Shown here in pieces: positions 8,104 to 33,840 of a stretch of DNA of 33,840 bases (its first letter is position 1; each line of letters opens with the position of its first letter). The position numbers were made by a program, and so were the translations under genes. The stretch is from a virus: the IMG/VR virus record IMGVR_UViG_3300020457_000040, positions 1 through 33,840 of that record; one strand, written 5' to 3'. The notes beneath the pieces were generated by a model that saw nothing but the letters and a program-made list of their open reading frames with translations, ran no database searches and was not told the origin of the DNA.

Positions 8104-8576
8104 TGGCTGTTTTTTCTAAAAAAATAATTGAAGCATATTACTCTAATTCCGAAAATGATACTATTGAAGTTATCTATAGAGAAGGTGATAAAGCTGTTGC
8201 TTTTTATTTGCCAGTTGATTATGAGGATCAAAATTATAAAGATTTAATATCTGAATATAGTTCAGAAAAAATAGCACAGTCTACATTAAATAGAAATGCT
8301 GTTTATGCAAAACAAATTAGAGATATAGTAAATGCACAAAAAAAGGCTATAGTAAATCAAACTCATAAAACTAATATAGAAGATTTTACAAAAGGTATAA
8401 TAGAATTTAATAAAGAAGAAAAATTACATCTTGATATTATGTTCGCTTTTAAAGTTAGAATATTTGAGTTAGAACAAGTAAAGAAAAGTACAAATAATGA
8501 ATTAAAAGCAAAAATTAGAAAAGCAAAAACACCTTTAGAAATTTTAAAATATTATAGTGAGATAGTTAATGATTAA
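8103..8576 (+). CDS. Hypothetical protein, 157 aa
   Basis: Not recognised. The start overlaps the epimerase stop as TAATG, indicating translational coupling. The N-terminal 60 residues mix short beta-like stretches (DTIEVIYREGDKAVAFYLPV), and the remainder is Lys/Glu/Ile-rich and predicted helical by eye, with repeated charged residues that could form coiled coils (ELEQVKKSTNNELKAKIRKA). There is no signal peptide, membrane segment or enzyme motif. The C-terminal coding end overlaps the next gene by eight bases. Membership of the cassette is by position; a scaffold or partner role is possible but not shown. Confidence 0.7.
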   Translation: MAVFSKKIIEAYYSNSENDTIEVIYREGDKAVAFYLPVDYEDQNYKDLISEYSSEKIAQSTLNRNAVYAKQIRDIVNAQKKAIVNQTHKTNIEDFTKGIIEFNKEEKLHLDIMFAFKVRIFELEQVKKSTNNELKAKIRKAKTPLEILKYYSEIVND

Positions 8577-9180
8577 TGTTTATTGTGTAAAATGGGGAAC
8601 AAAATACGATAGAAGTTTTGTAGAAAAATTAAAATCTTCTGTTGCAAAACATCTTACAGTTCCTCATAAGTTTACTTGTTTAACAGATATGCCTGAAATG
8701 GATTATGATGAAGGATTAGAATATCCTGAATTGAAAGGTGTATGGCATAAATTATCTTTATTTGAAAAAGTAGGTAAGTGTTTATATTTTGATTTAGATA
8801 TAGAAATAAATGGCAACATTGATTTTTTAGTTTGGAATGATGAAGACTTTAATAAACTAACATTAATAAACTCTATGAATTGGAAAGCTTTAAAGTCAGA
8901 TGATAGATTTAAATTTAGAAATAATACTTTAATCAATAGTTCTATTATGCGTTGGTCTAATTCATACGATATATTTGAAAAGTTTATGGAGAAAAAAGAT
9001 TTATATTTAAGACTATATACAGGTATTGATAGATTTATTTTTAATGAAAGAAATAGATTAAGTTTAAAATATAGAACGTTTAATACAGAAGAAATATCTA
9101 GTTGGCAAGAAGATGTTAAGACAAACACAATTATGATATACAATGGAAAGTACAATGATATACGACAAGAAGACGATTAA
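8569..9180 (+). CDS. Glycosyltransferase-like protein, GT-A fold with DLD motif
   Basis: Resembles small GT-A type (GT8-like) glycosyltransferases of phage and bacterial surface-glycan loci. Seen: an N-terminal Rossmann-like strand (INVYCVKWG), a hydrophobic strand leading into D75-L76-D77 (YFDLDIEING), which would bind the metal and nucleotide-sugar, N123-S-S-I-M-R-W in the acceptor region, and G152-I-D154 where these proteins often carry GDQD. At 203 aa it is compact. It overlaps the upstream gene by eight bases and contains the next start codon. With the epimerase it suggests glycan synthesis. Donor and acceptor cannot be deduced. Confidence 0.65.
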   Translation: MINVYCVKWGTKYDRSFVEKLKSSVAKHLTVPHKFTCLTDMPEMDYDEGLEYPELKGVWHKLSLFEKVGKCLYFDLDIEINGNIDFLVWNDEDFNKLTLINSMNWKALKSDDRFKFRNNTLINSSIMRWSNSYDIFEKFMEKKDLYLRLYTGIDRFIFNERNRLSLKYRTFNTEEISSWQEDVKTNTIMIYNGKYNDIRQEDD

Positions 9181-9835
9181 TATTTTAAATAGTTTAGCGA
9201 AAAAGTATCCTGAAAGGTTTACAGACGCTTGTAATTCTTTAAATGATAATCAACAAAAAAGTAAATACTGGTTAGTTGAAAAACTAAATGAATATAAATT
9301 TGATTTTAGAGATAAGACTAGTGAAAAAGGAATTGACGCATTAGTATTAGCGGGTTGGTATGGTGTTCTTGCGTATATTTTAATAGAAGAATTTAAATTA
9401 CAAAAAATAAATAGTATTGATACACTTGACTATGATCCTTTAGCAAAGAACGTAGGAAGAATATTGTTTGCGCCTAAAGACGCAGAAAATTTAAAATCAG
9501 GTAGAGCAACTTTTGTAAATTACAAATACAAAGATATTAGAAAATTAAAGTATGATTATTTAAATAAATTTGCTTTGGTTACTTGTACCTCTTGCGAACA
9601 TTTAAATCAAAAAGATATTGACCACGTAGTAGATAGATTGCATTCGGATACACTAGTTGTTTTGCAAAGTAATAATTATAAAGATTGCAACCAACATATT
9701 AACATAAGTGAAGATATAAATGAATTTAGAAATAGATATACTGATAAGTTAGATAATGTAAGAGCATATGTAAAACCTTTTGTTAGTTATGATAGATATA
9801 TGGTAATTGGAACAAGGAGAAAGAAAAATGTCTAG
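9155..9835 (+). CDS. Class I SAM methyltransferase-like protein
   Basis: The start is chosen at 9155 because GGAAAG (9145-9150) is well placed for it; an alternative in-frame ATG lies at 9143. A strand leading into A66-G-W-Y-G70 (VLAGWYGVLAYIL) matches the SAM-binding motif I variant GGWYG of a phage methyltransferase-like family. L91-D-Y-D94 follows at the motif II position, and the C144-T-S-C-E-H149 segment matches the conserved TSCEH element of that family. Substrate unknown. It starts within the glycosyltransferase-like gene and its end overlaps the nitroreductase-like gene by eight bases, so it is part of one coupled operon. The call rests on these motifs only. Confidence 0.6.
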   Translation: MIYDKKTINILNSLAKKYPERFTDACNSLNDNQQKSKYWLVEKLNEYKFDFRDKTSEKGIDALVLAGWYGVLAYILIEEFKLQKINSIDTLDYDPLAKNVGRILFAPKDAENLKSGRATFVNYKYKDIRKLKYDYLNKFALVTCTSCEHLNQKDIDHVVDRLHSDTLVVLQSNNYKDCNQHINISEDINEFRNRYTDKLDNVRAYVKPFVSYDRYMVIGTRRKKNV

Positions 9836-10562
9836 TTTAGCAGATATAATGAAACAACGACACAATACACAATTCTTTACAGATGAAGTACCAGAAAAAT
9901 CTGTAATAGATAATATATTGCAAGAAGCACATAAATTAACTCCTCATAAAAATAACTTTTATAGATATAAAATAAATGTATGGGGTCCTGAACATAAAGA
10001 AGAAAAAAGATGGATAGGTATTTGTTCAGTAGGTGGCGAAGGTAAAGATTTCTTTAGAGAAAATCCTACAATAGAAAATTTTAGAAAATTAGAAGACATC
10101 TACGATAGGTGGACTTCAAAAGAAAATGCTAGAAAAGGTTATCCTAAAGTAGAAGATTGTAATTTTAATACACAGGTTTTAGCACCATATCTATTAGTGT
10201 ATACACATCAACCTGATTTTAAAACTAAAAGTCAATTAGAATCAACTTATAATAAATCAGGTAATCTTGAAAAAATATTTAAACAACAAAAAAGTAATAA
10301 ACAAGATATGGATTGGATTATTCAATCATCAATGCACGGTATAACAACTGCTTATTTGTGTACTGAACAAGGATTAAATGCTTCTTTCTGTAGATGTTTC
10401 TTTTATGATGAAATAATGCCTACTGATATATTGTTAAAATCTAAACAACCTAAAAAAGATATTGCATTTTTATTAGGTATTGGTTATCAAGATAAATCTC
10501 AAAGAAGACACGTAAGTTATGTATCAAAACCTAATTATAATGAAATTATAGAATGGAAATAA
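9828..10562 (+). CDS. Nitroreductase-family-like flavoprotein
   Basis: The start at 9828 follows a strong ribosome binding site, AAGGAGA at 9814-9820. The N-terminus (IMKQRHNTQFFTDEVPEKS) matches the RRSxRxF...PV pattern of FMN-dependent nitroreductases, followed by ILQEAHKLTPHKNN, the position of the family's 'AP S xxN' FMN-contact segment. Near residues 165-190 the segment MHGITTAYLCTEQGLNASFC corresponds to the conserved helix seen before the second flavin-binding strand. Length (244 aa) is normal for the family. Such enzymes reduce nitro groups or quinones, or in natural-product clusters oxidise azolines and other bonds. The substrate here is unknown. In-cassette position suggests a redox tailoring role (inference). 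Confidence 0.65.
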   Translation: MSSLADIMKQRHNTQFFTDEVPEKSVIDNILQEAHKLTPHKNNFYRYKINVWGPEHKEEKRWIGICSVGGEGKDFFRENPTIENFRKLEDIYDRWTSKENARKGYPKVEDCNFNTQVLAPYLLVYTHQPDFKTKSQLESTYNKSGNLEKIFKQQKSNKQDMDWIIQSSMHGITTAYLCTEQGLNASFCRCFFYDEIMPTDILLKSKQPKKDIAFLLGIGYQDKSQRRHVSYVSKPNYNEIIEWK

Positions 10563-11287
10563 AAGTTAAAAATAAAACTATAGATTTTTTTCAACACGAT
10601 ATATCAGAAAAAAATAAAGTAGCAGTAAGTACTTCTAGTGGAACAGATTCTAGTTTAGCACTTTACTTAACAGCATTATGTTTTCCTAATAGAAAAATTA
10701 TTCCATATCATATGGAAGAATCACAATACCCAGGTCAAAAACCTAGTTTGTTTAAAATTGTTGAGTATTTTAATTCCATTTTACCTAATAAAAATATAAC
10801 AGAACCTTTAATTGATTCAGTTGATTATTGTACAAAAGGCTCTAAATGGAAATTAGAAGCAATTAAAACGCCTGGTGATTTACCAATAAAAGAAGATGGT
10901 AATACAGGACAAGCTAAAATATTAGCAAGTAAATATTATGAAGAAAAAAGATTTGAAAATGGAGATGTTGACTATATGGTTTGTGGTTCTACTAGTAATC
11001 CTCCAATGGAAGTTTTAAAAGATTCAAATGTTGTATATGAAGAAAGAAGAAGTGGAAGATTAAATCCTTTAATAGGACCTAAACATTATTTACCTTTCTA
11101 TCATTTAGATAAGAGTTATATTGCAGAAATGTGGAAGAAATATAATTTAATGGATATATTCAAAGAAACAATTAGTTGTATAGAATATAATAATCACGGA
11201 TCAAAAAAAGAATTACCTTGTAAAAAATGTTATTGGTGTTATGAAAAGTTTTGGGCATTTGGTATGTATGATGGAGGAATTAAATGA
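10553..11287 (+). CDS. QueC/ExsB-like PP-loop ATP pyrophosphatase
   Basis: Adenine-nucleotide alpha-hydrolase-like enzyme. The PP-loop is S28-S-G-T-D-S-S34, a variant of SGGxDS, right after a beta-strand (NKVAVST). The C-terminus carries four cysteines, C209, C223, C226 and C229 (CKKCYWC), placed as in the zinc site of QueC (7-cyano-7-deazaguanine synthase). Length 244 aa is close to QueC. No queD, queE or folE homologue is visible in the window. It may therefore activate a different carboxylate with ATP to form an amide, nitrile or thio derivative. It overlaps both neighbours by several bases. The enzyme class is well supported; a queuosine or deazaguanine function is not. Confidence 0.7.
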   Translation: MEIKVKNKTIDFFQHDISEKNKVAVSTSSGTDSSLALYLTALCFPNRKIIPYHMEESQYPGQKPSLFKIVEYFNSILPNKNITEPLIDSVDYCTKGSKWKLEAIKTPGDLPIKEDGNTGQAKILASKYYEEKRFENGDVDYMVCGSTSNPPMEVLKDSNVVYEERRSGRLNPLIGPKHYLPFYHLDKSYIAEMWKKYNLMDIFKETISCIEYNNHGSKKELPCKKCYWCYEKFWAFGMYDGGIK

Positions 11288-11991
11288 AAATAGTTGCTGT
11301 TAGAATAGGTGATAAGTATGGTCCTGAATATGAAAAGTATTTAGAAAGTAAATTACCAGAACACGAATTTATATGGGTTAGAGAACCTATCAATGATAAG
11401 ATACAATTACAATGGAATAAAATGTATGCTATGAATTTAGATATAGATGAGCCTGTTGTTGTAATGGACATTGATGTTATATTAGTAAATGATTATAAAA
11501 AGTTATTTGATTATCCTATAAAGAAAGGACAATTTCTAGCAATACCTGGTTGGTGGAGAGATACAAGTGGTAAGAAACATAAGATTAATGGAGGTTTCTT
11601 TAAGTACTATCCTAAAGATTGTAAATATATTTACGATAGATTTATGCAACAACCAATATATTGGCAAAAATATTATATATCAAAAGGTATTGCAAAAGGT
11701 CCTGTTAATGGTGAACAATATTTTGTAGAGGATAGTGCCAATGAAAGATTAGAAGTAATTACTGTACCTGAAAGTTGGGTTACTAGATGGTGTGCTAAAG
11801 AAGATATAGGAGTTAAAAATTTTGATTTGATTGAATGGAAAGCAAAAATACAAAGACAATATTACGAGGTAACTGGTAATGATTATATCTATTTAGGTGG
11901 TGAGTTTCATCCTGATATAAAGATGGTACACTTTACACACTCTACAAATAAACCACACGATTGGGAAGATATAAATGACTTCTATAAGTAA
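11284..11991 (+). CDS. Glycosyltransferase-like protein, GT-A fold with DID motif
   Basis: A second compact GT-A-like protein (235 aa). VVVMDIDVILVND places D62-I-D64 at the end of a hydrophobic strand, the usual metal/nucleotide-sugar site. INGGFFKYYP (residues 101-110) and G143-E-Q145 match the mid-region GxxQ pattern of GT8-like enzymes. H216-F-T-H followed by K223-P224-H-D-W matches the HFTG...KPW ending common to that group, so the fold looks complete. Overlaps its neighbours (ATGA-type start, 17-base overlap at the end). It differs clearly from the glycosyltransferase-like protein at 8569, so the cassette may add two different sugars. Substrates unknown. Confidence 0.7.
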   Translation: MKIVAVRIGDKYGPEYEKYLESKLPEHEFIWVREPINDKIQLQWNKMYAMNLDIDEPVVVMDIDVILVNDYKKLFDYPIKKGQFLAIPGWWRDTSGKKHKINGGFFKYYPKDCKYIYDRFMQQPIYWQKYYISKGIAKGPVNGEQYFVEDSANERLEVITVPESWVTRWCAKEDIGVKNFDLIEWKAKIQRQYYEVTGNDYIYLGGEFHPDIKMVHFTHSTNKPHDWEDINDFYK

Positions 11992-12586
11992 TAATTTTGA
12001 TGAAAGATGGAGAGTAAATATTGATATATCTAATAGATGTCCTTTAGAATGCCATTCTTGTTCAAGACAAGTATGGTATAGAAATAAAGGTTTAAAGGTT
12101 CCTGGTAAAGATATGTCATTAGAAGTTTTTAATAAAATTATTAGTCATTATAAACAAGTAAATTTTTGTGGTCAAGTTTCAGATCCAATACATCATCCTA
12201 AATTAATTACTTTTTTAAATATAATGAAAGAAAAAAATATAATGGCAGTAATACATACTGCTTCAGGCTATAAATCAAAAGAATGGTTTATAAAAGCATT
12301 TAAAACAAATCCAGACGCTAGATGGTTATTTGGTATTGATGGAGTGCCAGAGGTAAGTCATACTTACAGAATTAATCAAGATGGTGTAAAGTTGTTTGAT
12401 ATAATGTTAGAAGCTAAAAAGTATTTAAATAAAAGACCTGTATGGCAATATATTCTTATGGATTTTAATTTAAAATATCTTAATGAAGCAATGAATTTAG
12501 CAACAAAACATAATTTAGAATTTAAACAAATTATAGACAGAAAAAATTTAAGTGAAGGAGGTTACATTGAGCAATTTAAAACCTAA
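11975..12586 (+). CDS. Radical SAM protein core (SPASM-like domain in separate gene)
   Basis: The [4Fe-4S]/SAM-binding motif is C22-P-L-E-C26-H-S-C29 (CX3CX2C), close to the N-terminus after the strand VNIDISN, as in SPASM-type radical SAM enzymes that modify peptides or amino acids. FCGQVSDPIHHP takes the place of the usual GGEP strand: it has the position and length but a Gln-Val-Ser-Asp variant. The protein stops at 203 aa, short of the auxiliary-cluster domain. The following gene, in the +1 frame and overlapping by 20 bases, supplies a Cys-rich SPASM-like domain. Either this is a two-gene enzyme or an ancestral fusion broken by a frameshift. Substrate unknown. Confidence 0.75.
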   Translation: MTSISNNFDERWRVNIDISNRCPLECHSCSRQVWYRNKGLKVPGKDMSLEVFNKIISHYKQVNFCGQVSDPIHHPKLITFLNIMKEKNIMAVIHTASGYKSKEWFIKAFKTNPDARWLFGIDGVPEVSHTYRINQDGVKLFDIMLEAKKYLNKRPVWQYILMDFNLKYLNEAMNLATKHNLEFKQIIDRKNLSEGGYIEQFKT

Positions 12587-12884
12587 ATGTTTTGGTAGAA
12601 TGGAAGCTGCTGTTAATGCTCAAGGGTTTTTATTACCTTGTTGTTGGTGTGACCAACCTCCAACTTTAGAAGATAAAAATTTTAAAAAATTAATTAAAGA
12701 TAAATTTCATTTAGATAATGTTGAAAAGATTAGTGATGTAATTTATTCAGATGAATGGCAAGAGTTTAAAAAAGATTTAAAAGAAAGTAATTATGAAAAA
12801 CTACCACCTATATGTAAAATAAAATGTGAAGGTGATAAGATTAATGTTATTAAAAAATATCCAGAAGGAACAATTAAATCATAA
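12567..12884 (+). CDS. SPASM-like Cys-rich domain protein, partner of upstream radical SAM core
   Basis: In-frame starts are limited: a stop lies at 12549-12551, leaving GTG at 12552 or TTG at 12567. TTG is preferred because a perfect Shine-Dalgarno (AAGGAGG, 12555-12561) lies five bases before it. The protein is about 105 aa. The segment NAQGFLLPCCWCDQ has the G-x-x-x-P-C-C pattern of SPASM auxiliary iron-sulfur domains, with further Cys at the start (PKCFG) and near the C-terminus (ICKIKC). It overlaps the radical SAM core gene by 20 bases, and its stop overlaps the next start (TAATG). Alone it has no radical SAM motif, so it probably works with the upstream product. Confidence 0.65.
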   Translation: MSNLKPKCFGRMEAAVNAQGFLLPCCWCDQPPTLEDKNFKKLIKDKFHLDNVEKISDVIYSDEWQEFKKDLKESNYEKLPPICKIKCEGDKINVIKKYPEGTIKS

Positions 12885-14026
12885 TGAATAAAACTTATTG
12901 TCCTGTATTATTTGATACAATTTATAGTAGCAATGCTGATGATTGTTATAATCTATGTTGTTTTGCTGAAAGAGGACATCCATTAGATAAAAAATATAAA
13001 CAAAAGACACACGAACCTTTTGAGTTCTTTTTATCAAAAGAGATGGACGAAATAAGAGATAAGTCTTTAAAAGGAGAAAACATTGCTCAATGCAAAAGAT
13101 GTTATAAAGAAGAAAAAGAAACAGGCTATTCAAATAGAAATAGATATATTTACGAAAGAAGATTTGAAACATTACCTGTTAAGGTTGAGAAAGTAAGATT
13201 TAAGTTAAGACATTTTGGTAACCATTGTAATCTAGGTTGTTTGATGTGTCATCCTTATAACTCAACAACTAGAACAAAAGAATTAAAAGATATAGGTTTA
13301 TATAAAGACCTTTATGCTAGTTATAATAATCCTGTGTATGAGAATTTAGATTATAAATCTTATCAATTATTTAAAAATAATATTATTGAGAATATAGAAA
13401 GAATAAGTCAGATACAAATTACAGGAGGAGAGCCATTTCAAATACCTAAAGTTTGGCAGTTTTTAGTTGATGATATACCAAAAGAATATGCTAAAAATAT
13501 TAATTTAGTATTTGATACTAACTTGACTAATTTAAATTATAAGAAATATACTTATGAACATTTATTAGAAAAATATAAAAAGATTAGATTAAATGTATCT
13601 TGCGACCATATAAAAGATAAATTAGGATTTATTAGATATCCTATAGACGTAGATTTATTTGAAAAAAATTTAGAAAAGTATAAAGATAATGTTAATAGAG
13701 TTAATGTTACCGTTCAACTTTTAAATATATTTGATTTAGATATTATAAAACAATATTATAAAGGCTATGATGTGTGTACAGAATCTTATGTAGACCATCC
13801 TAAATTTTTATCAGTTAGAAATTTAAAAAATGAATATAAGAAACAATTACAAGATAACTATACTGGTTATGAAGACCGTAATAAATTATTCTTTACAGAA
13901 TTTACTAGAGAACCTTTAAGAGTTAAACAAAAGATTATAGATTATCTGAATAGTTTATCTAAACATAGAAAGTTAGATTGGACAAAAATATGGAATAAAG
14001 ATTTAATGGAGTGTTTATATGATTGA
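12884..14026 (+). CDS. Radical SAM protein with N-terminal Cys-rich domain (twitch/SPASM-like)
   Basis: A 380-aa protein with the radical SAM motif displaced inward: C115-N-L-G-C119-L-M-C122, followed by a GGEPF motif (residues about 180-185), which contacts SAM in this superfamily. The first 75 residues contain C6, C21, C25, C26, C70 and C73, in the pattern CPVLF...CYNLCCFAE...CKRCY, likely to hold one auxiliary iron-sulfur cluster. This arrangement (Cys-rich part before the radical SAM core) occurs in uncharacterised 'twitch-domain' radical SAM proteins of phages. The start overlaps the upstream stop (TAATG), and the end overlaps the next gene by eight bases. Reaction unknown; class assignment is firm. 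Confidence 0.8.
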   Translation: MNKTYCPVLFDTIYSSNADDCYNLCCFAERGHPLDKKYKQKTHEPFEFFLSKEMDEIRDKSLKGENIAQCKRCYKEEKETGYSNRNRYIYERRFETLPVKVEKVRFKLRHFGNHCNLGCLMCHPYNSTTRTKELKDIGLYKDLYASYNNPVYENLDYKSYQLFKNNIIENIERISQIQITGGEPFQIPKVWQFLVDDIPKEYAKNINLVFDTNLTNLNYKKYTYEHLLEKYKKIRLNVSCDHIKDKLGFIRYPIDVDLFEKNLEKYKDNVNRVNVTVQLLNIFDLDIIKQYYKGYDVCTESYVDHPKFLSVRNLKNEYKKQLQDNYTGYEDRNKLFFTEFTREPLRVKQKIIDYLNSLSKHRKLDWTKIWNKDLMECLYD

Positions 14027-14462
14027 AAAATTATTAAAAGACAATGGTAAAAAATATATCAAAAAAACTTTTGATTATAAAGGCGAAGACAATTTTGCTT
14101 TTTTGAAAAATGAAGTCTTTTGGTTAAACTATTTAAAGAGTAAGTGGGTACCTGAATTAGAAGAAGTTGGAGATAACTATGTTATCACACGATACTATGG
14201 TCCAGATTTAATGACATCAAAAATAAAACCTGATACTCAACAAGTAATAGATATGTACAAATTTTTTAAAGAGAAAAATGTATATAAATTAAATGGTGCA
14301 TTAAGTAATATGACAATGAATGGTAATCAATTAATTGCGTTTGATTGGAAATGGGCTAGATTTAGAACAGATAAATATAAAGACTATGAAATATTTAGTT
14401 ATGAAAAATGGTTATCTAAAATAGATATTGAATTGGTTGAAAAATTAAAATGTATGATTTGA
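14019..14462 (+). CDS. Small protein-kinase-like/phosphotransferase-like protein, probably degenerate
   Basis: 147 aa. It shows a compressed version of the kinase-like fold used by RIO, Bud32 and sugar or LPS kinases: K15/K16 on an early strand, E32 in a helix (KNEVFWLNYL), a strand and hinge (YVITRYYGPDL), then NGALSNMTMNGNQLIAFDWKWAR, in which N97 and D109 (FDW) fit the catalytic-loop Asn and metal-binding Asp. The usual catalytic HGD is replaced by L91-N-G-A, so the general-base Asp is missing. It may be a pseudokinase or use another residue. It overlaps both neighbours. Family assignment is moderate; activity is doubtful. Confidence 0.5.
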   Translation: MIEKLLKDNGKKYIKKTFDYKGEDNFAFLKNEVFWLNYLKSKWVPELEEVGDNYVITRYYGPDLMTSKIKPDTQQVIDMYKFFKEKNVYKLNGALSNMTMNGNQLIAFDWKWARFRTDKYKDYEIFSYEKWLSKIDIELVEKLKCMI

Positions 14463-14920
14463 ATAAAATAAAAGATGAGATAAAAACTTTACCTAAATGG
14501 GACGAACAAATTTGTCTACAAGGTACAAAAACTATCAAAGATCCTTTTGCTGGTATTGGTAAGGCAATAGACTTACCTGAAAAAGAAATAGAATTTACAT
14601 ATCCTTTATTTGATATACCTTATATAAACTCTATTATTAAAGAACACGATTTATATAGAGTTAGATTAATGAATCTAAAAAGAAAAACTTGTTATACCTA
14701 CCATAGAGACCAAGGTAAAAGATTTCATATACCTATTATCACCAACGAAAATTGTTTTTTTATAGTTGATGAAGAGCTTATTAGATATCCTGCAGATGGA
14801 AATTATTATATAGTTAATACTTCTAAAAAACATACAGCTATTAATGCTTCTAGGGAAGATAGAATACATTTAATTGGTAATATAAAAAAGAAAGATAATA
14901 GTTGGGGTATACTATTATGA
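14450..14920 (+). CDS. Aspartyl/asparaginyl beta-hydroxylase-like 2OG-Fe(II) oxygenase
   Basis: The iron triad of the Asp/Asn hydroxylase family is visible: H85-R-D87 (YTYHRDQGKRFHIPI) and H128 (KKHTAINAS), with R138 in DRIHLIG as the likely 2-oxoglutarate anchor. The spacing (about 41 residues between HxD and the distal His) and the phrase RFHIPIxTNENC match the family closely. Length 156 aa is the bare catalytic core. It would hydroxylate a beta-carbon of an amino-acid side chain or a related substrate, using O2 and 2-oxoglutarate. It overlaps the kinase-like gene (13 bases), and its stop overlaps the next start (ATGA). The substrate, protein or small molecule, is unknown. Confidence 0.75.
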   Translation: MYDLNKIKDEIKTLPKWDEQICLQGTKTIKDPFAGIGKAIDLPEKEIEFTYPLFDIPYINSIIKEHDLYRVRLMNLKRKTCYTYHRDQGKRFHIPIITNENCFFIVDEELIRYPADGNYYIVNTSKKHTAINASREDRIHLIGNIKKKDNSWGILL

Positions 14921-15348
14921 TAATAAAAGAGATAACACACGAACAAGCATTAGAATGGGTATCAAAACAAGACGTGGAAGATACTTGGCATAAAGATTTT
15001 AATGAGTGGAAAAAACATTTACTTTTAGCTGCAAAGTATTGGCCTTGGGTTAAAAAGTTTTATAGAGGTAAGAATAAATGGTTAGGTGCTTTTGATGATG
15101 AGTTATGTGGTGTTTATTGGTATACAATAGTTGACAATGAAATGTATGATGGTTTTTTAATATCAAAAAAACACGGTGCAGGAATAAAATTAGCAAGAGA
15201 GTTAGTTAAGATTACTAAAGGACAATGGAGATATAATTGGACAATGTGTAGTAAAGAATATTTAAAGTTTAATAACAGATTAGGATTTCAAGGAACAAGT
15301 TATGCAAATATAACACCTTGGGACGAGGTGTATTTACTATGGCGATAA
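14917..15348 (+). CDS. Putative GNAT-like acyltransferase, 143 aa
   Basis: The start at 14917 overlaps the preceding TGA stop (ATGA), typical of coupled genes. The middle has alternating strands (WLGAFDDELCGVYWYTIVDNEMYDG) as in the N-terminal sheet of GNAT proteins. HGAGIKLARELVKI is where the pyrophosphate-binding loop and helix would be, but it lacks a full Q/RxxGxG/A. C-terminally, CSKEYLKFNNRLGF matches the motif-B 'N...LYxKxGF' ending. The family call is therefore tentative. Its last ten bases overlap the aminotransferase-like gene. Confidence 0.5.
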   Translation: MIIKEITHEQALEWVSKQDVEDTWHKDFNEWKKHLLLAAKYWPWVKKFYRGKNKWLGAFDDELCGVYWYTIVDNEMYDGFLISKKHGAGIKLARELVKITKGQWRYNWTMCSKEYLKFNNRLGFQGTSYANITPWDEVYLLWR

Positions 15349-16436
15349 AAGAGATATTAAGTTTTAGTAAAATATATTCAGGTGCTGAAACAGTAATTAC
15401 TGGTAAGTATGATGAATTATTAATGAGTGATGGAAAGATTTATAAAGATACAATGTCAGGTCTTTGGAATGTTTCTTTAGGTTATTCTAACGATATGATA
15501 AAACAAGAAATGATTAATCAATTAGTTAAGTTACCTTATACAAGTAATTTCTCTGGTTATCATAGTAAGACTACAGAAGAATACGCAAATGAGATTTGTA
15601 AAAGAACAAATATGAGTAGAGTATATTTTACAAATAGTGGAAGTGCTGCTGTTGAAACAGCAATTAAATTATCAGGTAAGAATATAGCAGTATGTGGAAA
15701 ACATAGTTATCACGGTTCTACAATATTAAGTGCTAATGCAAGTGACCAAGATATTAATAAATTTTGGAAGATACAAAATCCTATGAGTGTTCATAAGTTT
15801 GAAACTGTTGATGACTTAATACAAATATCAAATGGATTATTTGATTTATCTTTTGTAATTATAGAACCAGTTGTAGGTGCAGGTGGTGTGTATGAATGGC
15901 AACCTGAAATATGGAAAGTATTAGAAGAGTATCAACAAAGAGGTGGTGTTCTTATATTAGACGAAACGGTTACAGGTTTTGGTAAACTAGGTACTATGTT
16001 TGCTTTTGAAAAGTATAATATAAAACCTGATATGATAGTTTTAGGAAAAGGTATTACTAATGGTTATTTTCCTATGGGTGCGTGTCTAATAAATGAAAGA
16101 ATAGAAAAGTCAGTTAAAATGTTTAATCACGGATTTACTTATTCAGGACATCCTGTTGGTTGTGCAGCTGCTTTACAAACAATTAAAGAAATTGATAAGT
16201 TAGATTTAAAACATCAGCAAATAAAAGGTATTACAAGACAATATGGTTGTATGGGTGCAATTGATTTTGAAACACCAAAACAATCATTAACTTTTATTAA
16301 AAAAATGAGAGAGAAAGGTTACATCTTGGAAGATGGATCAGAAAACGTATCAACTGCTGTATTTTGTTTACCATATATTTTTCAAGACCATAATGAATTT
16401 GAGGAGGCAATAAAATGTACCATAACGGATATATAG
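15339..16436 (+). CDS. Class III PLP-dependent aminotransferase-like protein
   Basis: Fold-type I, class III (GSA-aminotransferase/omega-aminotransferase branch). Seen in order: S100-G-S102 (NSGSAAVETAIKL) for phosphate binding, Y124-H125-G126 stacking on PLP, E176-P (IIEPVVG), D208-E (LILDETVTGFGK) for the pyridine nitrogen, and K237 (LGKGITNGYFPMGA) as Schiff-base lysine. Length 365 aa is shorter than the usual 420-450, mainly in the C-terminal small domain. The start at 15339 overlaps the GNAT-like gene's end; an upstream in-frame ATG at 15318 is less likely. It probably adds or moves an amino group on a keto sugar or keto acid, or acts as an aminomutase. Substrate unknown. Confidence 0.85.
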   Translation: MAIKEILSFSKIYSGAETVITGKYDELLMSDGKIYKDTMSGLWNVSLGYSNDMIKQEMINQLVKLPYTSNFSGYHSKTTEEYANEICKRTNMSRVYFTNSGSAAVETAIKLSGKNIAVCGKHSYHGSTILSANASDQDINKFWKIQNPMSVHKFETVDDLIQISNGLFDLSFVIIEPVVGAGGVYEWQPEIWKVLEEYQQRGGVLILDETVTGFGKLGTMFAFEKYNIKPDMIVLGKGITNGYFPMGACLINERIEKSVKMFNHGFTYSGHPVGCAAALQTIKEIDKLDLKHQQIKGITRQYGCMGAIDFETPKQSLTFIKKMREKGYILEDGSENVSTAVFCLPYIFQDHNEFEEAIKCTITDI

Positions 16437-17239
16437 AAACATTACCTGTACAATTACCAGAAGTACAAGATAAGATAAAAGAATATTTTGAATTTATCTA
16501 TAATCATAATGACTTAACGGTAAATAAGAAAACTATTTGTGATGACTTTAAAGCAAAATTTATACCTTGGTTGAATCAAGGACATATTAAATTTAAAGGA
16601 TTAGAAAAGTTTCCATATGTTTATATTGTAAATGGTGTTTCAGAATTTATACCTACAGTTATGACTGAACATAGTTTAAGACCTTTATGTGTAGAAGGAG
16701 AGTATATTGCTTATCCAGCATATGCAAGAGTATTATTAAAATCAGGTATTAAGTTAGATAATAAAATAGATGTTATCAGTTTACCTTTTTGTAGAACAGG
16801 AGATATACATCCTGAAACTTGCAACATATTAGAAAAACCATCTTTAGTTGACCTTGCGTGGGCAGGCAATAGTGGTGTAAAAGAAACTTTTGATTTAAGT
16901 AAAGTTAAATATGTAGCCTTTAGTTTTAGTAAATGTTTTGGTGTACAATATCATAGAATTGGTATTGCATATAGTAAAGTGCCTATTAAAACACTAGAAT
17001 TAGAAGCAGGTTTTACATATGTCAATATGGTAGGTGTAGACTTAATGAGATATTTAATGTCCATACCACCCCACCAGTTGTATGATAAATATAAGAACAT
17101 AGCTAATAAGTTATGTAAAGATAACGGAATAGAACCAACCAAACACTTATGGATTGGATTAAAGGACGGTAAAAGGCATTCACTATTAGAATATTGGATG
17201 AATTATTTAAATGAGAACGGAAAACCAAGAGTTTCATAA
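16415..17239 (+). CDS. Short class I/II-like PLP aminotransferase
   Basis: Has the signature of fold-type I class I/II aminotransferases: D146-L-A-W149 (pyridine-nitrogen Asp and following aromatic) and S170-F-S-K173-C-F-G with R181-I-G, i.e. the SxSKxxG...RIG block with K173 as Schiff-base lysine. YIAYPAYARVLLKSG (about 97-111) matches the substrate-side 'P.Y..Y......G' segment. At 274 aa it lacks much of the C-terminal small domain of typical members (about 370-400 aa), so it is reduced or works in a complex. An excellent ribosome binding site, GAGGAGG (16401-16407), lies seven bases upstream, inside the preceding aminotransferase-like gene. Its 3' end overlaps the next gene by 29 bases. 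Confidence 0.7.
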   Translation: MYHNGYIETLPVQLPEVQDKIKEYFEFIYNHNDLTVNKKTICDDFKAKFIPWLNQGHIKFKGLEKFPYVYIVNGVSEFIPTVMTEHSLRPLCVEGEYIAYPAYARVLLKSGIKLDNKIDVISLPFCRTGDIHPETCNILEKPSLVDLAWAGNSGVKETFDLSKVKYVAFSFSKCFGVQYHRIGIAYSKVPIKTLELEAGFTYVNMVGVDLMRYLMSIPPHQLYDKYKNIANKLCKDNGIEPTKHLWIGLKDGKRHSLLEYWMNYLNENGKPRVS

Positions 17240-17990
17240 CTTACTTAAATCAGTAGACTTTGCTGATGTATCTAATTTTTGGCAGGTACCATACAAAGAA
17301 ATACTTGAAGAAGTAAAAGAGATACCAGAAGACAAGTGGCGAAAACCATTTGACGCTGATTATAAGAGAGAAGGACTAAATGACCTTGAAAGTAATATTT
17401 ACTATCCAGGTTCTAAAGGAGATTTAGTTCCTGCAAGAGGTTGGAGAAGTGTAACCGCTTTAAATGAAACTGGTGATTATAGAGACCAAATATCTAAATT
17501 TACTCCTGTATTTAATACTGAAAATGAATACAGAAATAAAGTAAAAGAAGTTAGAGAGAAAAGTCAATGGACTGATATCTCACACTATCTTCCAACATTA
17601 CAAAAGTTTTTTGAAGATAGAATATTTCCTTATATGTATGTAGGTCATATTTACGTTAGTGCTTTAGACGCTGGTGGGATAGTGACCGAACATAATGATA
17701 TACCAGACGATTCAAGACCTATGTTAGAGAGTGATAGAGTACATAGTTTTAATGTTCTTAACACATTTAATATGGTTTTAAATCACGTTAAGTCTTGTTA
17801 TTCTTGTTTTAATGGTAAGATATTACCCGCTTATGATGGTGCAATCAGATGGACTAATACAGGAAAACAACATTGGGTAGTCAATATGAATAAGGAATCT
17901 CAATATCAAATTATATGGCAAGGGCTATATAAAAAATCATTTAGAAAATTAGTTAAGGAGAAATATAAATATAGTTATGGCAATAATTAA
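17211..17990 (+). CDS. 2OG-Fe(II) oxygenase-like protein (Asp/Asn hydroxylase-type triad)
   Basis: Putative non-haem iron oxygenase. H161-N-D163 (GGIVTEHNDIPDD) and H221 (GKQHWVVNMN) give an HxD...H triad with about 58 residues between, and the HWVVN phrase after the beta-sheet is typical of Asp/Asn hydroxylase-related proteins; the following QYQIIWQG strand would carry the 2OG side. The N-terminal 110 residues have no recognisable motif. It starts inside the aminotransferase gene, and its last 14 bases overlap the next gene. The end of its coding sequence (KYKYSYGNN) also encodes the late-promoter-like box at 17964. Family call moderate; substrate unknown. Confidence 0.65.
   Translation: MRTENQEFHNLLKSVDFADVSNFWQVPYKEILEEVKEIPEDKWRKPFDADYKREGLNDLESNIYYPGSKGDLVPARGWRSVTALNETGDYRDQISKFTPVFNTENEYRNKVKEVREKSQWTDISHYLPTLQKFFEDRIFPYMYVGHIYVSALDAGGIVTEHNDIPDDSRPMLESDRVHSFNVLNTFNMVLNHVKSCYSCFNGKILPAYDGAIRWTNTGKQHWVVNMNKESQYQIIWQGLYKKSFRKLVKEKYKYSYGNN
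17964..17971 (+). promoter_or_regulatory. T4-type late promoter box inside coding sequence, zero-leader geometry
   Basis: Exact TATAAATA, embedded in the codons Tyr-Lys-Tyr at the end of the 2OG-oxygenase-like gene. The predicted +1 (six bases after the box) falls at 17977, the A of the next ATG. Fifteen of sixteen bases match the block at 7344 (TATAAATAT A/T GTTATG). The only Shine-Dalgarno-like sequence, AAGGAG at 17955-17960, is 16 bases from the ATG, too far for good use. It may give a second, internal late transcript for the last three cassette genes. Confidence 0.5.
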
Positions 17991-18645
17991 TAAACATAGT
18001 AAAATAAATTTAGACGCAGATTTTCAAGAAAAACATAAAGAATTATTTAAAGTATTTTCTGATAATAGTTTAGATGTAGAAATCAATGAAGATTTTGACG
18101 GATTAAAATCATTTTTAACTTCATTATCAAAAGACGATTATCCTTATGATTTTGATGGTACTTTTGATGGTATAAGTGATACAACAAACTCTTTCGCATT
18201 ATTATTAAAATCAGGTGATACAATAGTTTCTACATATGCAGCTATGAAGATAGATTATAATAACTTTGTTAATGATATGAAAGCTTATTATAAAGGTACA
18301 TATGAAGATGTAGGTATTGATTCAGGTAATCAACTTTATAGTTCTTGTCAATGGGTATCAAAAGACCATAGAGGTAAAAAATTAGGTATGTGTTTAGACC
18401 ATTTAAAAAAGAATATTGTTTTTGATATTTTAAATGGCGATGTTAACTATGCAATACATAAAGAAGCATTTAAAAGTTATCATAATGATGGTTTAAAGTA
18501 TGATACAAGTTCAAAACTTGCGACAATACCTGAAGGTGATGTCGGTGGTGCAGGTGAAAAAATAGATAAAATTTATAACGTAACCTGGACAACTAAATCA
18601 TCTTGGGCAAGTAAACAAGATGATGTTAAAAAGTTATATAGTTAA
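17977..18645 (+). CDS. GNAT-family acyltransferase-like protein, 222 aa
   Basis: QWVSKDHRGKKLGMCLDHL contains R132-G-K-K-L-G137, the acetyl-CoA pyrophosphate loop (Q/RxxGxG/A) of GNAT motif A, followed by a helix and then VNYAIHKEAFKSYHNDGLKY, fitting the motif-B 'A.xxS...Y...G' region. The N-terminal 110 residues include a sheet (NSFALLLKSGDTIVSTYAAM). Acyl donor and acceptor are unknown. The start is only weakly supported by the ribosome binding site, AAGGAG at 17955-17960 being too distant, but coincides with the predicted +1 of a late promoter. It overlaps the upstream gene by 14 bases and the downstream one by 26. Confidence 0.7.
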   Translation: MAIINKHSKINLDADFQEKHKELFKVFSDNSLDVEINEDFDGLKSFLTSLSKDDYPYDFDGTFDGISDTTNSFALLLKSGDTIVSTYAAMKIDYNNFVNDMKAYYKGTYEDVGIDSGNQLYSSCQWVSKDHRGKKLGMCLDHLKKNIVFDILNGDVNYAIHKEAFKSYHNDGLKYDTSSKLATIPEGDVGGAGEKIDKIYNVTWTTKSSWASKQDDVKKLYS

Positions 18646-19222
18646 AAATTTTTTATCTGAAACAGAATTAAACTCTTTTACATATAATAAAAAAGAAGAG
18701 TTTAAATCCTCATCAGGAAATTTAATTTTATATTATCAAAAGTTATTAACTTCAATTTCAATTAAAATACAAAAACATATAGGAGATTTTTCTTTAAGGG
18801 ACGCTCACGTTTACGATTTAAAACAACCTTATAGATTACATTGTGATAGTGGTAAAACAAATAAATCAAATTATACTATAATTGTTCCTTTAGATAAAGA
18901 ACCACAAGGTGGACTTTTTATAATGAATCAATGGGCAGATAAAGCATATAGTTTAGATGATTATTACACACAGGATTTTCAATCAGTATTATCTTTTGAA
19001 GAAAGAAAAGAAAAGATAAAAGAATTTAATCCAGATGTATCACTTCCAGATACAATTGACTTTAAACATATAAAAGATAAAAGAGGATTTACAGTTCAAG
19101 ATTATATTGAATATGAATATAATACAGCGATTATGTATCCTAGTAAGTTTTTTCATTGTAGTCAAAATGTAGAAAATTTTACAAACAAAAAATCATTAGC
19201 GATATTTACAGATGTTAGATAG
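18620..19222 (+). CDS. 2OG-Fe(II) oxygenase-like protein, prolyl-hydroxylase-like
   Basis: HxD...H pattern of the 2OG-Fe(II) superfamily: H74-C-D76 (YRLHCDSGK), then a strand and turn TIIVPLDKEPQGGLFIM as in the double-stranded beta-helix (typical 'L...W.GG.L' position), and H179 in IMYPSKFFHCSQNV, matching 'fP....H.v..v', the distal His. A Lys-rich KKSLAIFTDV follows where Arg/Lys binds 2-oxoglutarate. Two successive ATG codons (18620, 18623) are possible starts. Overlaps both neighbours. It is the third such oxygenase-like gene in the cassette, and the sequence differs enough from the others to suggest a distinct substrate. Confidence 0.7.
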   Translation: MMLKSYIVKNFLSETELNSFTYNKKEEFKSSSGNLILYYQKLLTSISIKIQKHIGDFSLRDAHVYDLKQPYRLHCDSGKTNKSNYTIIVPLDKEPQGGLFIMNQWADKAYSLDDYYTQDFQSVLSFEERKEKIKEFNPDVSLPDTIDFKHIKDKRGFTVQDYIEYEYNTAIMYPSKFFHCSQNVENFTNKKSLAIFTDVR

Positions 19223-19766
19223 TTATACTTTTAAACCAAGCGAATTGCCAGAAATATATCGTATTCAAATTAACAATATTATTAAAGATGTTGTTGATAC
19301 TAAATCAGATTTATATTGGAAGAATTATACAAAGTTTAATATAGATGAACAAATTGCTATATCTGTAAGTTGTGAAGGAGATGATGTAAAAGTTATATCT
19401 TCAATATACAATAGAGAGTTTTATGGCGAAGGTGTATATAGATTATGGAATAGATTTCTATATTCTAAAGATTTTAGAGAAACAGGTGGGTCTAAAAAGA
19501 GAGCTGGAGAACATATAAATCATCCTGTATTAGCACAGCAGATAAACTTTGTTGAAGACCTTAATCCCAAATTTTATTTTATAAGTAGACAAAGAACAAA
19601 TACTAGATGGTTGAAGTATTACTTTGATAATTTCAATAAGGATTATAATAGAAATTTGATAGTAAGTGACCAACAATATTGGGTATGTAATGGAGATAAA
19701 GAGGGATGTGTTCAGACAATTATCCACCCAAAAAATATGGAAGTACCTTTGAAATCTTATAAATAG
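19212..19766 (+). CDS. Hypothetical protein, 184 aa, last gene of cassette
   Basis: Not recognised with confidence. It overlaps the preceding gene by 11 bases. A central region (DEQIAISVSCEGDDVKVISS) looks like paired beta-strands, followed by NREFYGEGVYRLWNRFLYS and a basic RQRTNTRWLKYYFDNF segment. A similar alternation appears in uncharacterised, possibly GNAT-like proteins of T4-like marine phages, but no acetyl-CoA motif is visible. The last codons (TCT TAT AAA TAG) also form the late promoter box at 19758 for the structural genes that follow, so the cassette abuts the structural block without spacer. Confidence 0.65.
   Translation: MLDSYTFKPSELPEIYRIQINNIIKDVVDTKSDLYWKNYTKFNIDEQIAISVSCEGDDVKVISSIYNREFYGEGVYRLWNRFLYSKDFRETGGSKKRAGEHINHPVLAQQINFVEDLNPKFYFISRQRTNTRWLKYYFDNFNKDYNRNLIVSDQQYWVCNGDKEGCVQTIIHPKNMEVPLKSYK
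19758..19765 (+). promoter_or_regulatory. T4-type late promoter box
   Basis: Exact TATAAATA overlapping the end of the last cassette gene. The predicted +1 is near 19771, giving a 27-base leader before the ATG at 19798, with TGGAGA as ribosome binding site. A near match (TATAAATT) follows at 19770. It probably drives the second structural block. Confidence 0.7.
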
Positions 19767-30831: not shown

Positions 30832-30839
30832 TATAAATA
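30832..30839 (+). promoter_or_regulatory. T4-type late promoter box
   Basis: Exact TATAAATA in the 69-base gap between 30806 and 30876. The predicted +1 is near 30845, giving a 31-base leader with AAGAGAGGGAA as ribosome binding site. It would drive the putative adhesin, the small protein at 32400 and possibly the heme oxygenase. Confidence 0.7.
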
Positions 30840-30875: not shown

Positions 30876-32375
30876 ATGCCAAATCTATCTAATTTATTAG
30901 GTTCAAGCGGAAGCTCTATTGACCACAGAAAAGAAGGATTACCTCTTTTCGGACTATGGGGCGATAGTGGAGACCAAAACACAAATATGAACTACAGAAT
31001 CTATGATTCTGGTTACAAAAACGTCGGATCACCTTGGGGTGCTGTATGTAATAGTACAACTAACTACAGATTTGGAATTCTTGGAGACGCCTCTCACGCT
31101 TACAATATGAATGACCACGGTACAGACGTATCACACTCAAATTTAACTTCACAAAATTATTCAGACTGGACAAAATGGATATCATCAACATACCAATGTG
31201 ACCAATATCCACACGCACAGTATTACACATCTTCAAGAGATGGATTTATTTCATTCCATTCTTATCACCACATTACTAGTGGATTTGAATGGCAAGTAGG
31301 TTGGACTAAAATTAACCACGTGTTACCTGAAGGTATCAGACCTAGAAGAATGTTTTGTAATAGAAGAAACTCATTAAGAGAAATGAACATAGGAAATAAC
31401 TCTTGCGCTAACATTGACCACTATGATTACACTTCTCACAAATTAGATAACACAGATACTTACGCAATTGGAACTGGTTATAACGAATCAACTAAAATGT
31501 TAGTTATGGTTCACTCGCAAGACGAAGGTTCTTCAACTGCTAAAACAATTCACGTGTTTAAGTCTTCAAAATGCTTAAACAAAGTAGATAGAATTAAAGA
31601 TTACTTTGACAACTTAACTGGTACTGAATACTTTACTGGTACTTGGACAACAGATAACAATAGAGATATGACTGTTGTTGTTGGTAATAACAATTGGGTT
31701 GGATTTGGACACAAAAACGGTAACTCAATGAGATATGCTGCTTTTGATTGTACTATAGGTACAAGTCTTGGAACAACTGATACAGCTAGAATATTTGATA
31801 GCTGGCAAGATTTCCAAGGTTCAACAACTACATCTTACGGTGCAAACCAAGGTTCTGGATACTACACTAAATTTAATACAACTTGGGATGGTACTTGGGG
31901 AATGATTTATGCTCCATACTACTACTACGGTTGTGGAATTAACGGTTGGTGTATGTCATTGCAAAATCCTAGAAAATTCATAAGTGTAAACGAAACAAAA
32001 TCAAGTAGAAGTAATCCTTATATGGCTTGGGGAAGAACAGGTTTCCACGGAGGTTGGTCAGACAACACCGACGGAGATACTATGAGAGTTTACTCTTGGT
32101 CTTTTGATCCAACAGATTCAGACCATACAACTACTACAAAAGTTTATCAAGGTGGATCATCTGGAGATGATGTTGTAAGAAACGATAACGCTCACCAAGG
32201 TTCAGCTACGGTAACTAATAAAACTGGTAACGTTGGATTATCTGCTAACAGATGTTTCTTAACTGGAGGTTACCACTCAACTTGTTATCCAAAAATGATG
32301 CAAATAGACTGGTGGGGTAATTTTGGAAATTCAGATAGTACCTACGGTGGTAACGGTTTTAATACAGCTACTTAA
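30876..32375 (+). CDS. Putative adhesin or fibre-tip protein, 499 aa, Cys- and aromatic-rich
   Basis: Family not recognised. Composition is unlike its neighbours: ten cysteines spread through the chain, many Trp, Tyr and His, and Asn/Gly-rich loops. Examples are QYPHAQYYTSSRDGF, SYHHITSGFEWQVGW and YAPYYYYGCGINGWCMS. Tyr, Asn and His codons are mostly C-ending (for example four TAC in a row near 31918), unlike the T-ending codons of most of the window, which suggests high expression or separate origin. There is no signal peptide and no enzyme motif. It begins MPNLSNLLGSSGSSIDHRKE after a late promoter. Placed last of the fibre genes, so a receptor-binding tip is a reasonable inference. Confidence 0.6.
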   Translation: MPNLSNLLGSSGSSIDHRKEGLPLFGLWGDSGDQNTNMNYRIYDSGYKNVGSPWGAVCNSTTNYRFGILGDASHAYNMNDHGTDVSHSNLTSQNYSDWTKWISSTYQCDQYPHAQYYTSSRDGFISFHSYHHITSGFEWQVGWTKINHVLPEGIRPRRMFCNRRNSLREMNIGNNSCANIDHYDYTSHKLDNTDTYAIGTGYNESTKMLVMVHSQDEGSSTAKTIHVFKSSKCLNKVDRIKDYFDNLTGTEYFTGTWTTDNNRDMTVVVGNNNWVGFGHKNGNSMRYAAFDCTIGTSLGTTDTARIFDSWQDFQGSTTTSYGANQGSGYYTKFNTTWDGTWGMIYAPYYYYGCGINGWCMSLQNPRKFISVNETKSSRSNPYMAWGRTGFHGGWSDNTDGDTMRVYSWSFDPTDSDHTTTTKVYQGGSSGDDVVRNDNAHQGSATVTNKTGNVGLSANRCFLTGGYHSTCYPKMMQIDWWGNFGNSDSTYGGNGFNTAT

Positions 32376-32399: not shown

Positions 32400-32684
32400 A
32401 TGGCAACATTATATTTTAATACTGAAACAAATAAAGTTTTCTCAGCTAATGCGGTTACAGGAGACGAAGCTGTTTCACAAGGAAGAGCAATCAAAGTTGA
32501 TAGTGCTCCTGACGGAATTGAACAGTGGAGAATGACTTATAATCCTAGTACAAAAGCTGTAGATGTATACGCAGATGGACAAGACGAAGCTGCTGCTCAA
32601 GCTCAAAGACAAACAGATGACGAAACACAAGCTGCTGCTGACAAGAAAAAAATGGACGAAGAAGCGGCTGCTGCTGCTGGTTAA
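32400..32684 (+). CDS. Small structural-type protein, 94 aa, with Ala/Glu-rich C-terminus
   Basis: Starts MATLYFNTETNKVFSANAVT after the ribosome binding site AAGGAGATAAG. The first 60 residues are probably a beta-rich domain (EQWRMTYNPSTKAVDVYADG), and the last 35 form an Ala/Gln/Glu/Lys helix (DEAAAQAQRQTDDETQAAAD, then KKKMDEEAAAAAG), likely a coiled coil. It could be a fibre chaperone, adaptor or trimerising partner of the preceding adhesin, with which it shares a transcript. No homologue is recognised. Confidence 0.65.
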   Translation: MATLYFNTETNKVFSANAVTGDEAVSQGRAIKVDSAPDGIEQWRMTYNPSTKAVDVYADGQDEAAAQAQRQTDDETQAAADKKKMDEEAAAAAG

Positions 32685-32717: not shown

Positions 32718-33368
32718 ATGTATGACATTAAAGAACTAACCAAAGAAATTCATCAAAACGCAGAAAGACAAGAGTTTGTCAAAACTCTAATGTCAGGTTC
32801 AATAGAACCTAGACTTTATGCGACTTATCTTTACAATCAATTACAATGCTATTCTGTACTAGAAAAGTATGGAATGGAAAATTCTTTATTTAGAACAACT
32901 CCTAACTTACCTAGAGGAGAACATATCTTTTATGATTACAGAGCATTATGGCAAGACATAGGTGCTCCACCTCCTATAACAGAAAGCACTAAAAAATATG
33001 TTGCACATATAGAATCAATTAAAGAAGACGCTGAAAAATTATATGCACATATCTATGTAAGACATTTAGGAGATATATCTGGTGGTCAAATGATTATGAA
33101 AAAGACACCTGGTCCTAATAGATATTACATATTTAAACATAAAGAAATCAAAGAGTATAAGAATATTGTTAAAGAAACAATTAACAGTTATTTAAATGTT
33201 TATAAACTTAATATTCTTAATGAGTGTAAATTTTGCTTTGCTTCCGCCACGGAATTATTTAAAGAGATGAACGATATGGATACTTCTAAACCTTTGATAT
33301 TAACTAATGAGTATAGAGATACAGAAAACGATCCTTTTAAAGGAACAAGTATTGAAGGCAAAGATTAA
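32718..33368 (+). CDS. ho1: Heme oxygenase, biliverdin-forming
   Basis: HO-1 type enzyme that opens haem to biliverdin with release of CO and iron, using reduced ferredoxin in phage and cyanobacterial systems. Seen: H12 in a helix with HQNAER as proximal haem ligand, LYNQLQCYSVLEKYG as the conserved helix, and Y113-V-R-H-L-G118-D119-I-S-G-G-Q124 as the distal helix, with D119 at the place of the catalytic Asp (human HO-1 D140). Length 216 aa is normal. Start at 32718 with no Shine-Dalgarno; the 33-base gap upstream holds no TATAAATA. Its stop overlaps the next start (TAATG). Marine phages use it to feed bilin reductases such as pebS or pcyX, none of which is visible here. Confidence 0.85.
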   Translation: MYDIKELTKEIHQNAERQEFVKTLMSGSIEPRLYATYLYNQLQCYSVLEKYGMENSLFRTTPNLPRGEHIFYDYRALWQDIGAPPPITESTKKYVAHIESIKEDAEKLYAHIYVRHLGDISGGQMIMKKTPGPNRYYIFKHKEIKEYKNIVKETINSYLNVYKLNILNECKFCFASATELFKEMNDMDTSKPLILTNEYRDTENDPFKGTSIEGKD

Positions 33369-33840
33369 TGAAAAGTTTATCTGAGGAATGGGATAAATTT
33401 TTTAAACAACACCCTTATGGTGGACCTTGGGATTATAATAAACATACAAAAAAATTACAAGATGACCACGTTGTTGATTTTATAAAGTATTATAATTTTG
33501 AAAAAAATCTAAAGGTTTTGGATTGTGGATGTGCTGATGGTAGAAATTCTGAATATCTTATAAATGAGGAGTTTGAGGTAACAGGTATAGATTTTTCACA
33601 AACGGTTATAGAAAGAACTCAAAAGCGTTTAACAAAAGGAAAATTTCTTACTGGAGATATAAGAAAATTAGATAATATTGAATCAAATAGTTTTGATTTT
33701 CTTATTGACGCTGGTGCTTTACACGTAAATTTTCCAAAAGATATTATATCAATTATAAAAGAGTATCATAGAATATTAAAACCTTCTGGAAAAATGTTTA
33801 TTAGAGTTTTCAATAAAGATGACGATACACCTAATCCTAT
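33368..33840 (+). CDS. Class I SAM methyltransferase (3' end outside window)
   Basis: The frame starts at ATG 33368, overlapping the heme oxygenase stop, and stays open to the window end; 157 codons are visible. LKVLDCGCADGRNSEYL (about residues 47-63) is SAM motif I (hydrophobic strand then GxGxG variant, here DCGCADG), followed by FEVTGIDFS, with the acidic residue binding the ribose. SFDFLIDAGALHVNFPKD matches motif post-II/III ('D.I...g.lh...'), and a helix plus LKPSGKMFIRV gives motif III-IV. Methyl acceptor unknown. It is translationally coupled to the heme oxygenase, so it may share its pathway or be a cargo gene. Confidence 0.8.
   Translation, partial: MKSLSEEWDKFFKQHPYGGPWDYNKHTKKLQDDHVVDFIKYYNFEKNLKVLDCGCADGRNSEYLINEEFEVTGIDFSQTVIERTQKRLTKGKFLTGDIRKLDNIESNSFDFLIDAGALHVNFPKDIISIIKEYHRILKPSGKMFIRVFNKDDDTPNP

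Follow-up and report, generated by a model that had tools for sequence, protein, structure and literature searches.

The question raised by this locus is whether a phage can use a heme oxygenase without a bilin reductase to follow it. The window analysed here is the whole of a 33,840-base virus record, and so nothing 3' of position 33,840 is present in the same record. At its 3' end a heme oxygenase gene (hemO, product HO) adjoins a SAM methyltransferase gene (MT), with fibre-like genes upstream, and the open reading frames up to the record end include no bilin reductase. The original prediction described this order correctly. It went on to suggest that HO is coupled to MT instead of to a bilin reductase, while allowing that a reductase might lie beyond the window. 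We believe that the second suggestion is the right one and that the coupling to MT is incidental. The window end is very probably the 5' part of the hemO-pcyX cassette of a Mosig-like T4-type phage, into which a mobile MT has been inserted as a passenger, the whole probably being expressed with the fibre transcript. What we read from the sequence is gene order, gene families, catalytic residues, purifying selection on HO and PcyX, the mobility of MT and the pattern of promoter boxes. The features at the window end are as follows.

30832..30839, plus strand: late-promoter-like box TATAAATA, 5' of the 499-aa adhesin/fibre-like gene, from a list of exact matches; the last such box in the window
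30876..32375, plus strand: open reading frame for a 499-aa adhesin/fibre-like protein, 5' of the cassette; a probable fibre gene by its position and the original prediction
32400..32684, plus strand: 94-aa open reading frame with a strong Shine-Dalgarno (TAAGGAG) and no family match
32718..33368, plus strand: heme oxygenase (hemO, HO), 216 aa, first gene of the bilin cassette, identified by Pfam, solved heme oxygenases and residues
33368..33840, plus strand: class I SAM methyltransferase gene (MT), a putative mobile passenger, cut by the record end; about 212 aa once completed by contig L097
33840..33840, plus strand: record end; the overlapping contigs L097 and L096 carry on the sequence

The heme oxygenase

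HO matches the Pfam family Heme_oxygenase (PF01126) at 71 bits against a cut-off of 23, and it matches solved human, cyanobacterial and bacterial heme oxygenases with E values down to 1e-11. Its catalytic residues are intact, namely the proximal histidine H12, the arginine before the distal helix and the motif GDISGGQ. When aligned to solved HO-2, it has both the proximal histidine and the distal-helix GDxSGGQ with its catalytic aspartate. H12, the arginine and the tested residues of the motif are invariant in 82 of 82 aligned HO sequences. The dN/dS of HO against its relatives is about 0.09-0.23, and against close relatives about 0.09-0.14, which indicates strong purifying selection. A homologue from the freshwater phage CB_2 is active (PMC11480375). 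We infer that the HO of the window would convert haem to biliverdin IXalpha, opening the haem with release of Fe2+ and CO. The stop codon of HO overlaps the start of MT at 33368 as TAATG (GATTAATG). Repeats in the window are weak and have no bearing on HO or MT.

The reductase beyond the record end

A search of the viral collection with an exact 29-base pattern taken from the window end matched two contigs, both from other samples. The last 77 bp of the window are reproduced identically in L097, L096 is 99.7% identical to the window over 343 bp, and the two contigs are 99.96% identical to each other over 4,777 bp. Both complete MT, and a second TAATG overlap then leads into a 225-aa ferredoxin-dependent bilin reductase (FDBR), assigned by the Pfam model Fe_bilin_red. 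The FDBR is followed by a late box, a gp13-like neck gene, more structural genes and a 2OG-Fe(II) oxygenase; L097 also has the large terminase. The positions of the FDBR gene and the neck gene are these.

L097:243-920: pcyX, the FDBR gene
L097:964-1788: gp13-like neck gene (PHROG head-tail adaptor)

The FDBR is PcyX-like, scoring 392 bits to the PcyX structure 5owg against 47 bits to PcyA. The PcyX-specific catalytic aspartate is present in 81 of 81 FDBRs (position 53 in L097, 55 in Mosig), and this residue is named as Asp55 in PMC11480375. The reductase is itself under purifying selection, with a dN/dS of about 0.10-0.17. PcyX produces phycoerythrobilin from biliverdin (PMC11480375, PMC13197396), and the enzyme encoded just past the record end would do the same with electrons from ferredoxin. 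An FDBR therefore lies one gene 3' of hemO, as seen in L097 and L096 rather than in the window record. The reductase seems missing because the contig stops just 5' of the second cassette gene; its apparent absence is an accident of where the record stops. The statement that no bilin reductase is in view holds inside the window and fails past it. A pcyX or pebS gene directly downstream had been named in advance as the finding that would overturn the original prediction, and L096 and L097 supply one if a single inserted gene is allowed.

Both overlaps (343 bp and 77 bp) lie wholly within MT, a gene that is present at other sites too. We consider the risk of a wrong join to be small because HO lies 5' of the window MT and pcyX 3' of the continuing copies, which is the same slot, and because the nearest MT from another slot has only 94% DNA identity to the window copy. 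The relatives give the same picture. We surveyed 80 related viral HO loci, one of which (L050) stops inside HO, so that 79 are testable. A reductase is present in all 79, directly next to HO in 76 and behind the same MT in three (L027, L044, L079), and a profile search found an FDBR in 36/36 records tried. The exact HO-MT junction GATTAATG occurs also in L044, L079 and L093; L027 shares the gene order, with GTG as the start codon. Each of these loci runs on into pcyX. The HO-matching stretch of L079 (10001-10588) has in-frame stops in the protein search, one TGA and one TAA, and its HO reading frame seems shortened at the 3' end; a frameshift or sequencing error is a possible cause.

Two other readings of the record end have to be set against these data. 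HO might work without a bilin reductase, together with MT, and release iron (or biliverdin or CO) during infection. The absence of a reductase within the window would fit this, and iron supply has been considered as a role of cassettes like this one (PMC11480375). However, pcyX stands 3' of MT in both continuing contigs, and a reductase under purifying selection is kept at every testable related locus, so we consider a stand-alone role extremely unlikely; iron release may instead be a by-product of the HO reaction of the cassette. This removes a false lead, since nothing that we find points to a heme oxygenase acting alone in this phage. It could also be argued that the record end is an assembly chimera in which HO and MT were misjoined through the repeated MT gene. 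Related phages do have MT elsewhere in the genome, and here it sits at the very end of the record, but the recurrence of the exact junction in three other loci and of the same order in L027, all reaching pcyX, leaves a misjoin hardly credible. The preferred reading, a hemO-pcyX cassette cut short by the record end, is the one we carry forward.

Relation to known cassettes

The hemO-pcyX (or hemO-pcyA/X-alaS) cassette of pelagimyophages has been published (PMC11480375, Nat Commun 2024), and earlier work on PcyX is cited there as refs 6 and 16. The locus described here shares with that cassette an HO followed by a PcyX-type FDBR, beside gp13 neck genes in Mosig-like phages. It differs in having MT between hemO and pcyX; the main text of PMC11480375 mentions no such gene. 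The three-gene form differs in another way, since a 5-ALA synthase gene (AlaS) lies near the cassette in some relatives (2/18 related records) but is absent from L096 and L097, which reach 4.7-8.2 kb past MT. In L018 (a 177-kb record) and the L022 record, a 5-ALA synthase gene lies about 3-4 kb 3' of hemO-pcyX, which corresponds to the 'broken' three-gene cassette of PMC11480375.

The most useful comparison is with an isolate, Pelagibacter phage Mosig EXVC030M (MT647606), to which HO has 66% and the FDBR 72% amino-acid identity. The Mosig cassette occupies the same place between the fibre region and the neck genes, with HO directly before the FDBR; MT is absent from between them, and the 141-kb genome as a whole contains no homologue of it. 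The large terminase (TerL) of the window continuation is 81% identical to that of Mosig and 64% identical to that of HTVC008M. By its terminase, closest to those of isolates infecting Pelagibacter, the phage can be classed as a pelagimyophage, Mosig-like and T4-type, and its host is probably SAR11. Just 5' of its hemO, Mosig (L082:16910-17680) has a gene annotated as ferrochelatase together with several genes for 2OG-Fe(II) oxygenases, a possible link between the cassette, haem supply and iron.

The cyanophage pairs ho1-pebS and ho1-pcyA represent the same two-step pathway from haem to phycobilin. However, HO here is only about 25-32% identical to cyanophage ho1 products, and the reductase is PcyX-like rather than PebS or PcyA. 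A SAR11-type host is a non-phycobilin host. Neither the phycobiliprotein family (PF00502) nor the phytochrome PHY family (PF00360) was found in six phage records, including Mosig and the 177-kb record. The purpose of the phage bilin has been called enigmatic (PMC11480375). We regard the window end as an ordinary example of a known module, slightly varied in structure by the inserted mobile MT, and the work adds well-supported pelagimyophage bilin cassettes with an inserted gene.

The methyltransferase as a probable passenger

The original prediction called for the methyltransferase family to be identified, and this could be done only in part: MT falls among the class I SAM methyltransferases, but no specific family is reached. 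MT matches several class I methyltransferase models (Methyltransf_25, E 2.8e-17) and has the SAM motif LDCGCADGRN, but the family libraries return only generic class I matches and NCBIfam cut-offs are not reached. A fold predicted from six sequences was poor (pLDDT 67); a second prediction reached pLDDT 85 and found only generic class I methyltransferase neighbours, about 1,320 PDB chains at E<=0.001. MT shares its fold and SAM motif with the class I SAM methyltransferases 6mro, 1ve3 and the TehB-like 3cgg, at about 20% identity. With a fold match this generic, the predicted structure does not point to a substrate.

The distribution of MT is more informative. Scanned with the MT alignment, the viral contigs yielded 44 loci, and the same pattern scan of bacterial and archaeal genomes gave no loci. 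We classified 38 of the viral loci: 15 lie beside a clamp-loader gene, eight downstream of the replicative helicase, six near the ssDNA-binding protein, five in the bilin slot, three between an aminotransferase and a nucleotide-sugar epimerase, and one in the neck-terminase region (L094). MT homologues thus occupy at least six genomic slots of marine T4-like phages. Copies outside the window are found at these positions.

L094:2662-3306
L106:6001-6636
L116:6001-6639
L122:5998-6642
L129:5998-6624

Synonymous divergence tells the same story as position. The copies closest to the window MT are those in the clamp-loader slot, with a dS of 0.10 to the L106 copy (bootstrap 0.04-0.15), while the HO and FDBR from the same record as L106 stand at dS 0.82 and 1.02 from those of the window. 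Against L044, which has MT in the same slot, the values are 0.22 for MT, 1.17 for HO and 0.90 for the FDBR. The dS of MT (0.10-0.22) is about 4-10x lower than that of the flanking HO and FDBR (0.8-1.2), and a difference of this size implies that MT spread separately from them. Its dN/dS of about 0.5-0.6, window against relatives, is also much above that of HO or the FDBR. When the presence of MT is mapped on the HO tree, three changes are needed, each of which may be a gain or a loss. The simplest reading of these patterns is that MT is a gene exchanged among phage lineages and sites, which would have entered the hemO/pcyX joint more than once. In the present cassette both of its junctions are stop-start overlaps of the form TAATG. 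The survey identifies a small methyltransferase that has several fixed sites in marine T4-like phages and moves among them.

The arguments for a dedicated role of MT deserve a fair hearing. MT could be a third cassette enzyme that methylates a bilin (for example on a propionate carboxylate) or a haem intermediate, giving a new methylated bilin. Its start-stop overlaps with both neighbours would suit such a role, as would the occupation of the same slot in separate HO lineages and the presence of ChlM (Mg-protoporphyrin methyltransferase) among its many structural neighbours. ChlM is only rank 44 in a match that is generic, however, and homologues sit in at least five other slots, which are unrelated to bilins. 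Cassettes without MT at this slot make up 76 of the 79, and the isolate Mosig lacks the gene entirely. Two records, L006/L106 and L018/L116, each pair an MT-free cassette with a distant MT. With its synonymous divergence far below that of the cassette, MT is neither restricted to bilin cassettes nor co-evolving with them. We therefore think a dedicated bilin methyltransferase very unlikely, and give only a slim chance to the proposal that MT was recruited to methylate a bilin or haem intermediate, in which case some pelagimyophages would produce a previously undescribed methylated phycobilin. We infer instead that MT is a passenger whose substrate is most likely a small molecule, nucleic acid or protein unrelated to the pathway, and that it is merely co-transcribed with the cassette.

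Expression of the cassette

Boxes of the form TATAAATA lie 13-44 bp 5' of several window genes. The last is at 30832, before the adhesin gene, and no box occurs from there to the window end, so none precedes HO. The HO start has a Shine-Dalgarno core of at most 3 nt. The claim that HO has neither a Shine-Dalgarno nor a late box of its own is thus borne out, and most relatives likewise have an HO start with a weak Shine-Dalgarno or none. A box is found in the 300 bp 5' of HO in 0/76 related loci, and within 120 bp 3' of the reductase in 78 of 79. Every relative tested has the cassette as the last part of the fibre transcription unit, with no late box to itself. This conserved box pattern fits expression of the cassette with the fibre transcript, probably as its tail, up to the late box before gp13. 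As for the proposed read-through from the adhesin transcript, the layout beneath it is conserved in relatives, and read-through itself is plausible. The 499-aa adhesin/fibre-like protein has no Pfam or PHROG match. A short AT-rich palindrome (e.g. AGAAGATAGTAATATCTTCT) lies between the upstream gene and hemO in L002 (just upstream of 10001), L027 and L044 and is absent from the window; it could be a weak terminator or processing site.

Other genes of the window

We considered whether the class-III aminotransferase at 15318-16436 is a glutamate-1-semialdehyde aminomutase, which would feed haem synthesis; that family is absent from its best 25 NCBIfam matches, none of which reaches its cut-off. 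The gene belongs to a segment at 7357-19766, between blocks of structural genes, in which the genes are tightly packed and have few family matches. This segment includes a nucleotide-sugar epimerase, an Asp/Arg hydroxylase and, at 12884-14026, a twitch-domain radical SAM protein that scores over the NF033640 cut-off. It is possibly a sugar or peptide modification island.
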